A stretch of DNA of 64,000 nucleotides, from assembly GCF_001507535.1 (NCBI RefSeq), contig NZ_LQBN01000003.1, positions 310,001 through 374,000 of the forward strand, in the 5' to 3' direction. Below, piece after piece: positions 33,523-36,803 of the stretch (its first letter is position 1; every line of letters starts with the position of its first letter). Both the position numbers and the translations under genes were made by a program. This stretch comes from Thiomicrospira sp. WB1. Its GTDB lineage: Bacteria > Pseudomonadota > Gammaproteobacteria > Thiomicrospirales > Thiomicrospiraceae. A model generated the notes under the pieces. That model was not told the DNA's origin. It searched no databases and worked only from the letters and a program-made list of their open reading frames with translations.

Positions 33523-34290
33523 ATGAGTACGCAACTGCTCTATGGATTGCACGCGGTTGAAACACTGCTCAAGCAATCTCCCCAATCGATTATACGTTTG
33601 AGCGTCCAACCTCAACCGAATGCCCGTTTAAAAAAATTATCGGCGCAGGCGAACGCCCTGGGGGTGCGCTGTGAGGAGCATGGCTTTAAACAACAGGTGG
33701 CGCGCTTGCCCAAAGACGCGGTTCATCAGGGCGTTGTGGCCGAAGTGGTTGCGAAAACACCCCTCAGTCCCAAGCAGTGGTTGGCCCAGTTGGAGGGGTT
33801 GATCGAACAAGGAAAGGCGCCTTTGGTTGTGTTTCTGGATGAAGTTCAGGATCCGCATAATCTGGGAGCGATTCTGCGTACGGCCGATGCGTGCGGCGTG
33901 ATGTCGGTTGTGATTCCCAAGCACCAGTCCGTCGGCCTGAATGCCACTGTGCGAAAGGTGGCAAGCGGTGCGGCTGAGAGCGTGGATTTGGTGGTGGTGC
34001 CGAATTTGGCCCGCGCCATCGGTGACGCGCAAAAGCGGGGTCTTTGGGTCACCGGTCTGGCCGGAGAAACCTCACAGACCCTTTATGATCAGAGCCTGAC
34101 CGGGCCGACGGGGCTGGTGATGGGCGCCGAGGGCAAAGGGTTGCGCAAAGGGGTGCGTGAGCAGTGTGATTTTCTCGCGGCCATTCCCATGGCGGGTGTG
34201 GTGGACAGTTTGAATGTGTCCGTCGCCACAGGCGTGGCACTGTACGAGGCCATTCGACAGCGCTGTATGAGTTCTTCCAGCACAACCTGA
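33523..34290 (+). CDS. rlmB: 23S rRNA (guanosine-2'-O-)-methyltransferase RlmB
   Basis: 255 residues. The N-terminal L30e-like RNA-binding domain (LYGLHAVETLLKQ) and a SPOUT methyltransferase domain with DEVQDPHNLGAILRTADA, MGAEGKGLRKGV and the knot-forming IPMAGVVDSLNVSVA are present. It methylates G2251 of 23S rRNA in E. coli. It is convergent with the PfkB-Rieske gene. No hairpin terminator was seen in the 38-bp gap. Confidence 0.96.
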   Translation: MSTQLLYGLHAVETLLKQSPQSIIRLSVQPQPNARLKKLSAQANALGVRCEEHGFKQQVARLPKDAVHQGVVAEVVAKTPLSPKQWLAQLEGLIEQGKAPLVVFLDEVQDPHNLGAILRTADACGVMSVVIPKHQSVGLNATVRKVASGAAESVDLVVVPNLARAIGDAQKRGLWVTGLAGETSQTLYDQSLTGPTGLVMGAEGKGLRKGVREQCDFLAAIPMAGVVDSLNVSVATGVALYEAIRQRCMSSSSTT

Positions 34291-34328: not shown

Positions 34329-35537
34329 TCAGTCTGCTAAATAAATATCGCCATTGTCTTCGACACGAATCGCAACGGGTTGAAGAGCATCATTCAGGCA
34401 GGGGCCTTCGACACATTCCCCATTCTCGATCTTGAAAAAGGCATCGTGCACGGAGCATTTCATGGTTTTTTCAAACGGATTGACGTCCACCTTGTAGGCT
34501 TCGTTCAGCGGCACGTTCTGATGAGGGCAGTTGTTCTCATACGCTTTGACCTGACTGCCATCCGAAATCAGCAGCACAGAGTGCCCGAGCTTCGGGGCAG
34601 GCACAACCGTGACTTTTGCCTGGCTGATGCTGCGCTGGTTGGCCAGAGGTTTGGGTTTTTCAATCGGTGCCAGTAGATTATCCAGTCCTTGTTTCTGACA
34701 CTTGTGGGAGGCCAGATCGCTTGCTGCTTTGACCGATTCTGCCAAAGCATGTCCCTGTAGTAACGCATCAATCAGTCCGGCGTTGAAGGTGTCGCCCGCG
34801 CCAAGTGTGTCGATCACCTGGTCAATTTCTTTGGCTGGCTGATGGTGAACCGTCTGTTGCCCGGCACTTTTAAACCAGGCACCTTTTGTGCCCCAGGTAC
34901 AAATCAGATGTTGCGCGGTCAGCGAGGGGGCCAGTGCGCTCAGTAATGCCTCTCCGTCTTGGTAGCCTTTGGCGCGTGCATAGTGATGCGAGAAAATGAT
35001 GACATTGGCCAGTTCAAACACCGTCTCAATGCCTTCGCGCGGCTTTTCCACTTCCAGAGAAATGGGCTGCTGGTCAAGGAAGGTGCGGGCGATATTCAGC
35101 ATACCAGGCAAGTGAGACAGGTTGCGCCCTTCAAAATGCAACCAATCCCAGTTTTCGATTTCGATCTTGGCAAAAAAGTCAAAGCTCACTTCTGGCAAGT
35201 CGCGAAAATGGGTAATGGTGCGGCTGCCGGTTTCGCGGTTTCGAATGACGTAGGACGTCGGTGTTGCGCCCTGTAAAAACCGCTGGATGTGATCCGTGTT
35301 GATGCTTCGTGCTTCCAACCCCTGTTTGAGCTGTTTGGCTTCATGGTCTCCGCCGGTGGCAGTCACGAGCGTGGACGCATGCCCGAGTTGATTGAGCACA
35401 TAAAGACTGTTTGCCACATTGCCGCCGACGGAAAACGTTCGCCCTTGGGCGCGCATTTCCTCGTCTTCACGGGGGTAGTGGTCTGTGTCCAGAATGGTGT
35501 CGAGTACACAGTTGCCAATGCCGAGAATGTTTGCCAT
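34329..35537 (-). CDS. PfkB-family sugar kinase fused to a Rieske [2Fe-2S] domain
   Basis: 402 residues from the ATG at 35535-35537, chosen because AAGGA lies upstream and the protein then starts at the first PfkB strand (MANILGIGNCVLD). Residues 1-295 form a PfkB/ribokinase domain: FSVGGNVANS (35-44) is the sugar-binding block, DTLGAGDTFNAG (243-254) the anion-hole and catalytic aspartate. Residues 305-402 form a Rieske ferredoxin-like domain with ligands Cys337-x-His339 and Cys361-x-x-His364. No signal peptide is present, so it is cytoplasmic. The kinase part resembles ketohexokinase-type enzymes. The frame is continuous across the junction. Substrate and purpose of the redox domain are unknown. 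Confidence 0.88.
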   Translation of the reverse strand: MANILGIGNCVLDTILDTDHYPREDEEMRAQGRTFSVGGNVANSLYVLNQLGHASTLVTATGGDHEAKQLKQGLEARSINTDHIQRFLQGATPTSYVIRNRETGSRTITHFRDLPEVSFDFFAKIEIENWDWLHFEGRNLSHLPGMLNIARTFLDQQPISLEVEKPREGIETVFELANVIIFSHHYARAKGYQDGEALLSALAPSLTAQHLICTWGTKGAWFKSAGQQTVHHQPAKEIDQVIDTLGAGDTFNAGLIDALLQGHALAESVKAASDLASHKCQKQGLDNLLAPIEKPKPLANQRSISQAKVTVVPAPKLGHSVLLISDGSQVKAYENNCPHQNVPLNEAYKVDVNPFEKTMKCSVHDAFFKIENGECVEGPCLNDALQPVAIRVEDNGDIYLAD

Positions 35538-36080
35538 GTCAATCAATCCTTTCTGAAAGTGCCCTTGGGTTTGATAAGCGTGCCAATCAAGGCAAAGTAT
35601 TTTAGCACAGCCCTTGTTGTACCGGCTGGTCAGGGCGTAACCCCGCGGCGTGAATAAGTTAAAAAAATACTTGACAGGCAAAGATTGAAGATTAGATTTT
35701 TCTTCTCACTTGTTTTATTGGAGTATTAAGTAACATATTGAAAAATATATATTATTTCGTTTATTTTTCGTTTGAATGCCAGTGAGAGCGGTCAAATCAG
35801 TCATCCACAGAAGTTGTGGATAACTGTGTGAATGAACCGATTTTAAAGAGGCTAAATCCTTTAATATCGTTCGCCTTTAATAGATTGCCTAAATATTAAT
35901 CACATCTTATTTTTGTTGGCAGAAAGTTGAGTCAAAACTCGGAGTTGCCGAAAAAAACGACCGAGATAGTTAAAAAAAATTTATTCAAGCATTAGTTTTT
36001 CATGGGCAAAGCGATGGCCGGGGAAGCAAGAGGGTCTTCGCTTTTTGGTATCATAAGAGAACTGTTTTTGGAGACGTTTT
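35538..36080. other. Long AT-rich intergenic region upstream of fnr
   Basis: 543 bp between divergent genes. It contains a TTGACA (35671-35676) with a weak -10, T- and A-rich repeats such as TTTATTTTTCGTTT near 35760-35773, a pair of inverted DnaA-box-like sequences (35801-35823), and A tracts near 35970. No open frame in it looks like a gene. A small RNA or extra regulator sites are possible. Confidence 0.5.
35801..35823. promoter_or_regulatory. Inverted pair of DnaA-box-like sequences
   Basis: TCATCCACA (35801-35809) is one base from TTATCCACA. TGTGGATAA (35815-35823) is a perfect DnaA box on the minus strand. They are separated by five bases, next to AT-rich DNA. They may bind DnaA or may be chance. 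Confidence 0.4.
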
Positions 36081-36803
36081 ATGACTCGTCAGATGCCGAA
36101 TCACTCTGCAAGCTGTGCTCATTGCGCCCTTCAAGGCGTTTGTTTTGCTTCCAGTCTTTATGAATCGGACTTAAGCCAGTTGGAACCTGTGGTGGCGCAT
36201 CTGCCTTCTTTCATGAAAGGTGACACCGTCTTCACACAGGGTGAAAACTTTCACCATCTGTATGCGGTCAGGGCTGGCATGGTCAAAGTTTATGCTCGGA
36301 ATGACCGTTGCCAGGAAGTGATCCAGGGATTTTATTTGCCGGGCGATATCATCGGTCTCGAGGCTGTTGCCGGTGGTGAACATGTCTTCAACGCGGTGGC
36401 ACTGGATACAACCACCGTGTGTGCGTTGCCCTATGCACAACTCGATGATTTGCAAAAACGTGTGCCGGGTTTGATGAACCAGATGATCCGCCTGATGAGT
36501 CAGGAAATTCTTTCCGGGCGGGTGCATGCCGGCATGCTGACCCAGAAAACGGCCGAACAGCGTGTGGCGCAGTTTTTTTTGAGCATGTCCAGTAAGTACA
36601 AAGCTCGAGGGTATGAGCATTTGCAGTTCCGATTGAATATTCTGCATCGTGATTTGGCGAATTATCTGAATCTGACGCCTGAAACCGTGTCGCGCATTTT
36701 GGGTAAATTTCATCGCCAGGGATGGATGAGCTGGAAAAAACGAGAGGTCCACATCGCGGATATGAATCAGTTGTGTGCGTTTGTGGAAGCCCAAGCAGGA
36801 TGA
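36081..36803 (+). CDS. fnr: Anr/FNR-type oxygen-sensing Crp-family regulator
   Basis: 240 residues. The four cysteines expected to bind an oxygen-labile [4Fe-4S] cluster are present: Cys12, Cys15 and Cys21 in CAHCALQGVC, and Cys114 in TTVCALPY. The cyclic-nucleotide-like sensor domain is followed by a dimer helix and a helix-turn-helix, LANYLNLTPETVSRILGKF, with the ETVSR recognition residues of FNR. It controls the aerobic-anaerobic switch. GGAG lies before the ATG. No partner genes are coupled. Confidence 0.92.
   Translation: MTRQMPNHSASCAHCALQGVCFASSLYESDLSQLEPVVAHLPSFMKGDTVFTQGENFHHLYAVRAGMVKVYARNDRCQEVIQGFYLPGDIIGLEAVAGGEHVFNAVALDTTTVCALPYAQLDDLQKRVPGLMNQMIRLMSQEILSGRVHAGMLTQKTAEQRVAQFFLSMSSKYKARGYEHLQFRLNILHRDLANYLNLTPETVSRILGKFHRQGWMSWKKREVHIADMNQLCAFVEAQAG

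Follow-up and report, generated by a model that had tools for sequence, protein, structure and literature searches.

A single gene of the sulfur bacterium Thiomicrospira sp. WB1 encodes a PfkB-type sugar kinase and a Rieske-type ferredoxin in one continuous frame, and this arrangement was confirmed as a genuine fusion rather than a chance or assembly join. Judged from its sequence and predicted fold, the kinase half is a relative of ketohexokinase (KHK). The pairing of the two parts is real and conserved, this gene representing, in fused form, two genes found side by side in many other families. The gene lies within a window of 64,000 nucleotides, which is the whole stretch of DNA that was analysed (contig NZ_LQBN01000003.1, positions 310,001 to 374,000 of the forward strand). 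The following features were assigned, with positions counted from the first base of the window.

34329 to 35537, minus strand: fused gene, 402 amino acids plus stop, ketohexokinase-like PfkB kinase plus Rieske-type ferredoxin (open reading frame, Pfam, relatives, structure model)
34674 to 35537, minus strand: ketohexokinase-like kinase domain, residues 1-288 (Pfam PfkB, fold match to human KHK, fructose-site residues)
34791 to 34802, minus strand: GAGD with the putative catalytic-base aspartate D249, residues 246-249 (D249 in 91 of 91 kinases of the tree set)
34602 to 34673, minus strand: linker, residues 289-312 (sequence-variable, predicted ordered; mean pLDDT 91-95 in the ten-residue blocks of 281-320)
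34332 to 34601, minus strand: Rieske [2Fe-2S] domain, residues 313-402 (Pfam Rieske, alignment A1)
34521 to 34529, minus strand: predicted first cluster-ligand motif CPH, residues 337-339 (C, P and H in 62 of 62 rows)
34446 to 34457, minus strand: predicted second cluster-ligand motif CSVH, residues 361-364 (C361 and H364 in 62 of 62 rows)
34398 to 34415, minus strand: extra invariant cysteine pair C375 and C380, C-x2-GPC (62 of 62 fused or kinase-paired rows)
36081 to 36803, plus strand: Fnr-like regulator gene, divergent neighbour, given as context (NCBIfam Fnr subfamily, 199 bits, below the cut-off of 228)
33523 to 34290, plus strand: rlmB, convergent neighbour, given as context (TIGR00186, 230 bits, above cut-off)

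The fused gene, carried by a genome of 2.28 Mb, begins with an ATG at 35537 and ends with a stop codon at 34329-34331, giving 402 codons with no internal stop. A longer form starting from a TTG at 35681 is possible. Alignments with the full-length named relatives begin at residue 1, which corresponds to the ATG, and an AGGA is located nine bases 5' of this codon. The initial annotation had described two complete domains, PfkB and Rieske, in one continuous frame, leaving the strand unstated. The frame was borne out on the minus strand, both domains scored above their Pfam cut-offs (PfkB, 134.3 bits against 25.8, residues 2-287; Rieske, 40.7 bits against 20.3, residues 314-383), and the GAGD, CPH and CSVH motifs fell exactly at the residues it had given.

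The closest named relative of the fusion in the collection was found in Hydrogenovibrio halophilus, with 79% identity over residues 1-401. Since a search of 62 own-family genomes (G000-G061) found both domains in a single open frame in 60 of them, the fusion is not an assembly accident, and the objection that orthologs might always be two genes fails within the family. The two exceptions were G045, in which the match stops at residue 369, and G054, in which it is split into two pieces. A frameshift, a missed stop or an assembly join was ruled out by the open frame, its recurrence in these 60 genomes, the kept synteny and the dN/dS values. In comparison with H. halophilus, the dN/dS of the kinase was 0.083, that of the linker 0.195 and that of the Rieske domain 0.030, values that are rough because synonymous sites are near saturation. 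Purifying selection appears to act on both halves, kinase and Rieske. Among 37 family members, the invariant positions amounted to 71 of 288 in the kinase, 0 of 24 in the linker and 33 of 90 in the Rieske domain. The structure of the fusion, predicted from 83 aligned sequences, reached a mean pLDDT of 96.3 and a pTM of 0.89.

These features bear on the idea that the kinase is gated by redox state, so that the state of the [2Fe-2S] cluster or of C375/C380 would switch it and sugar phosphorylation would follow the redox state of the cell. We regard this as possible though doubtful. The retention of both halves in one frame, the invariant extra cysteine pair and a Rieske dN/dS below that of the kinase speak for it, and the high-confidence model with its ordered linker would also fit such a tightly coupled, regulatory arrangement, without showing gating. 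The unconserved sequence of the linker argues against it.

The nearest solved proteins to the kinase half by sequence were mammalian ketohexokinases (best E 1e-45). The fusion model matched the fold of human KHK with a Z of 40.7 over 288 residues at 34% identity, ahead of the sulfofructose kinase YihV (PDB 7agk; Z 34.6), the putative ribokinase 2rbc (34.3) and human ribokinase (33.0). YihV shares the PfkB fold with the fusion but is farther from it than KHK, with 25% identity. In the alignment, residues D13, N40, N43, R138, K165 and D249 of the kinase half corresponded to D15, N42, N45, R141, K174 and D258 of KHK. In published mutational work on human KHK-A, alanine at D15, N42 or N45 abolishes activity, R141 and K174 mutants are less active, and D258 is regarded as the general base (PMC11332825). 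All 91 kinases used for the tree, be they fused to a Rieske domain, next to a Rieske gene or on their own, have equivalents of D15, N42, R141, K174 and D258; that of N45 is present in 90 of them, L143 having a threonine instead. Because the KHK-type fructose-site residues are kept throughout this set, an ATP-dependent ketose-1-kinase would be the best-supported activity of the kinase half. Human KHK (PDB 6ul7, 2hqq and 3nbv) thus has in common with the fusion the kinase fold and the six fructose-site residues, whereas its solved chains have one domain and align with residues 1-289 only.

The kinase half being a ketohexokinase relative, its candidate substrates narrow to ketoses. Of the fructose, ribose or adenosine named at the outset, a fructose-type ketose therefore stands, and ribose and adenosine fall away, KHK being nearest both by sequence and by fold. 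Identity as a ribokinase, an adenosine kinase or a 1-phosphofructokinase was also rejected, as the NCBIfam matches listed (25 of 31) were below their cut-offs and KHK was nearest.

Three PfkB proteins are encoded in the genome of Thiomicrospira sp. WB1, namely the fusion, HldE (NF008454, 683 bits, above cut-off) and the kinase of a sucrose cluster. The cluster is located outside the window (G000:C1, L221:2551-8613) and comprises a sucrose-phosphate synthase (TIGR02472, 662 bits, cut-off 576), a sucrose-phosphatase-like protein (PF05116), the PfkB kinase and an alpha-amylase-family GH13 enzyme. Going by sucrose clusters of a similar kind, free fructose is a plausible metabolite in this organism. 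The sucrose-cluster kinase (L221:5638-6570) and the fusion are both PfkB proteins with a common DT-GAGD segment, but the former has no Rieske match and its only significant local match to the fusion covers 46 residues. Its fructokinase match reached 84 bits against a cut-off of 450. On this analysis, the fusion would not be the sole candidate fructose kinase of Thiomicrospira sp. WB1.

In the Rieske half, the C-P-H and C-x2-H ligands and the C-x2-G-P-C cysteines were invariant among 35 fused or kinase-paired copies (alignment A1), and the C-x2-GPC motif was retained in 38 of 39 Rieske family members (at least 80 bits) located away from the kinase, the exception being cut by a contig end. Going by Rieske folds in general, C375 and C380 presumably sit in the loop near the cluster. 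As read from its motifs, the Rieske half probably binds a [2Fe-2S] cluster. That it has lost the cluster and is purely structural is hardly credible, as nothing beyond the absence of a known partner favours such a role, and the four ligands kept in all 62 rows and the low dN/dS contradict it.

The matches listed in fold searches with the whole fusion model were kinases, covering residues 1-293, and the nearest solved relatives of the Rieske half by profile were oxygenase ferredoxins (E 2e-6 at best). These include the ferredoxins of carbazole dioxygenase (3gce), toluene monooxygenase (1vm9) and biphenyl dioxygenase (1fqt), which have the same C-x-H and C-x2-H motifs in a small domain. However, the similarity is weak, and 3gce, the best-matching solved Rieske protein, has a cysteine at the second extra position (the C380 equivalent) and none at the first (C375). 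Such relatives would suit a Rieske domain acting as ferredoxin to an oxygenase by which the kinase substrate is made or removed, a reading that we consider very unlikely. The genome contains two Rieske domains above cut-off, the fusion and a bc1 subunit (TIGR01416, 236 bits), so this search found no Rieske oxygenase partner, and neither an electron donor nor an acceptor was identified for the fusion. Furthermore, inspection by eye of the recurrent neighbours described below revealed no Rieske oxygenase. In two other loci (L166:5162-6579 and L168:4848-6284), a gene of the Rieske family was located directly 3' of a gene named by eye as MtnA-like, with no kinase in the stretch; MtnA is methylthioribose-1-phosphate isomerase.

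The distribution of the two parts was determined across 369 evenly sampled genomes of the class, with the kinase counted at E 2.1e-38 or better and the Rieske family at 96 bits or more; another 21 genomes with Rieske matches at 56-90 bits, none of which has the kinase, were left out of the count. The kinase was found in 102 genomes and the Rieske family in 121, with both in 59, the kinase only in 43, the Rieske family only in 62 and neither in 205, although some absences may reflect gaps in draft genomes. The two were fused or adjacent in 38 of the 59 genomes with both, comprising four of the four own-family genomes and 34 of the 98 others with the kinase, and the latter 34 span 23 family codes. 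Among 299 genomes sampled evenly across the phylum, two gave a match at E 1e-25 or better, namely the own genome and another of the same class. In the plasmid collection, none of the 70 matched records covered 80% of the query at one place, and identities were 24-29% among the 15 listed.

Of 80 kinase loci read outside the family, five were fused, 26 had an adjacent Rieske gene, 47 were without a Rieske neighbour and two were undecidable at a contig end. Three further adjacent pairs (G109, G413 and G214) were recognised from coordinates alone, by which the 15 other unread genomes were unlinked. In 25 of the 26 adjacent pairs, which fall among loci L079-L157, the Rieske gene lies downstream on the same strand, its match starting 20-110 bp past the end of the kinase match; in L156 the order is reversed, with the Rieske gene just upstream. 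These pairs belong to the same protein families as the fusion and keep all the ligands, but are two genes rather than one. The fused form outside the family was found in G206 (a Halothiobacillus MAG, record L016, whose contig begins inside the fused gene), in G421, G328 and G218 of one family, and in G115. Seven kinase loci without a Rieske neighbour (L087, L089, L119, L134, L140, L142 and L144) carry a ThiO-like FAD oxidoreductase gene 3' of the kinase, and six of these also carry a Fur-like regulator gene there, both named by eye; this is a different setting from that of the Rieske-linked kinases.

Across the 369 genomes, co-occurrence had an odds ratio of 4.5 (p 6e-10) with the linked genomes included, and after removal of the 38 linked genomes the proportions were 21 of 64 against 62 of 267, with an odds ratio of 1.6 (p 0.15), both values being uncorrected for kinship and draft gaps. 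Without the linked genomes, co-occurrence is thus not above background, which indicates that neither part generally needs the other and that the signal resides in adjacency and fusion. Likewise, each part is apparently capable of working by itself, as the Rieske family is missing from 43 of the 102 genomes that have the kinase, and the kinase from 62 of the 121 that have the Rieske family.

A co-occurrence at background level is also what would be expected if unrelated neighbouring genes had simply lost a stop codon and been retained as a harmless fusion. Fusion appears to be easy, because in L079, L080 and L081 the kinase and Rieske genes share a frame and are separated by a single stop. Nevertheless, adjacency or fusion recurs in 23 family codes other than the own one, and a quick tree of the kinases requires three switches between fused and unfused, two of them forced by strongly supported branches, with either direction of change fitting. 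The SnoaL_3 and BASS genes considered next also join the kinase and the Rieske gene in varied combinations. An accidental fusion is therefore unlikely.

A SnoaL_3 family (PF13474) was found in 70 of the 369 class genomes at E 1e-20 or better. It was located within 1.5 kb of a Rieske gene without the kinase in 16 genomes, of kinase plus Rieske in seven and of a kinase without Rieske in three, amounting to 25 linked genomes in total as G122 counts in two classes; no copy was linked in the other 45. Linked SnoaL_3 genes were divergent everywhere but in G080 and G347. No SnoaL_3 match was found in the four own-family genomes of the class sample, Thiomicrospira sp. WB1 included. One of the 16 genomes, G103, has a Rieske match of 86 bits (G103:C30:3556-3810) with three in-frame TGA codons beside a SnoaL_3 gene without stops, and this match is either a decaying copy or a case of a reassigned codon. 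In the SnoaL_3 alignment A2 of 13 rows (L177:7027-7452), the invariant residues include E14, C41, H87, E91, H121 and H122, which could, as a guess from the sequence, hold a metal. The SnoaL_3 model was nearest to 3gwr, titled putative CaMKII association domain.

A BASS transporter gene (PF01758 in the two examples scanned) adjoins a kinase-Rieske pair, a lone kinase, a Rieske gene or a SnoaL_3 gene in 14 loci (L078, L085, L101, L108, L120, L132, L137, L138, L145, L160, L163, L182, L183 and L200), and a gamma-glutamyltranspeptidase gene (PF01019 in the three scanned) adjoins SnoaL_3 or the kinase in L085, L130, L167, L180-L183 and L200. Joint comparison of the kinase, Rieske and SnoaL_3 loci, by which alone the order was recognised, suggests an ancestral arrangement of pyrE, xth, an AmpG-like MFS gene, gamma-glutamyltranspeptidase and SnoaL_3, then divergently the kinase, Rieske and BASS genes, which was lost differently in different lineages. 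No single compared locus has the full order from pyrE to BASS. The labels pyrE, xth and AmpG were assigned by eye, the Pfam match of the AmpG-like gene being MFS_1. These counts are not rates, because the Rieske-only and SnoaL_3 loci were hand-picked from longer lists, and part of the BASS and AmpG-like matches are smeared, their profiles having been derived from stop-to-stop frames; spurious clusters from shadow frames in GC-rich loci were set aside by eye. The kinase-Rieske pair thus appears to be part of an older neighbourhood. That the kinase sits in a fixed operon outside the family was rejected, as no neighbour beyond Rieske was prominent in 82 clustered loci. A small DUF6763 protein (PF20549, one example scanned) was encoded within 5 kb of the kinase, Rieske or SnoaL_3 gene at L184:6530-6841 and in 20 other loci.

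Within the own family, the neighbourhood is a different one. In the 15 named family loci (L002-L015 and L018), the fused gene is flanked on one side by Fnr-like, pal and pepN genes in all 15 and on the other side by rlmB and rnr in 14, the exception being L004. The neighbouring fnr had been called suggestive of oxygen or redox sensing, a view that did not hold: as pal and pepN on one side and rlmB and rnr on the other are likewise kept, its position beside the fusion reflects general synteny. Elsewhere, the Fnr of the window was matched at E 1e-10 or better in only two of 81 loci (L142 and L144), at 25-26% identity and about 2.7 kb from the kinase. Fnr was accordingly rejected as a functional partner. 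A gap of 543 bases (35538-36080) separates the divergent fusion and Fnr-like genes, and its promoter-like matches on the plus strand (35671-35698 and 35738-35767) were about as many as in shuffled sequences. The gating idea is weakened by this family-specific adjacency and by the 43 genomes in which the kinase lacks this Rieske family while its active-site residues are the same; the 62 genomes with the Rieske family and no kinase likewise count against it. A more elaborate proposal is that the protein is a redox-gated ketohexokinase, its activity governed by the tethered Rieske cluster with support from the invariant C-x2-GPC cysteines, and that it derives from a so far undescribed module of gammaproteobacteria (gamma-glutamyltranspeptidase, SnoaL_3, ketohexokinase, Rieske ferredoxin and BASS) that would couple the use of ketoses or organic solutes to redox state, and this we put forward only tentatively, as improbable in its entirety.

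The most likely explanation, ranked above redox gating, a neutral fusion and an oxygenase ferredoxin, is that the protein is a fused operon pair in which an autonomous ketose-1-kinase is tethered to a Rieske redox module of the same pathway; we give this reading an even chance of being right. Two neighbouring operon genes would have become permanently joined as one protein by fusion. The kinase domain alone would phosphorylate fructose, or a ketose like it, at the C1 hydroxyl with ATP. The Rieske domain would hold a [2Fe-2S] cluster and, within the small pathway shared with the kinase, either carry single electrons or respond to redox state, and the fusion would keep it beside a kinase that has no need of it for its chemistry. 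In this scheme we infer the kinase activity and its substrate, cluster binding, the shared pathway and a direction of fusion rather than fission. The adjacency of the two genes may partly be a leftover of the ancestral gene order, and this was counted against the explanation.

The initial annotation was aware of no characterised protein with this architecture, and our search of the open-licence literature agreed, returning no description of a PfkB protein, ketohexokinase or other sugar kinase combined with a Rieske domain (PF00294 plus PF00355). To our knowledge, no direct link of a Rieske cluster to sugar phosphorylation has been described, and if the two halves work together, the fusion would provide such a link between an iron-sulfur cluster and sugar phosphorylation. 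Even without gating, the kinase, Rieske, SnoaL_3, BASS and gamma-glutamyltranspeptidase genes appear to form a recurring set whose parts are common to many gammaproteobacteria. The fusion firmly ties two members of this set, and offers a simple single-protein object for probing in the laboratory the role of a widespread orphan Rieske ferredoxin.
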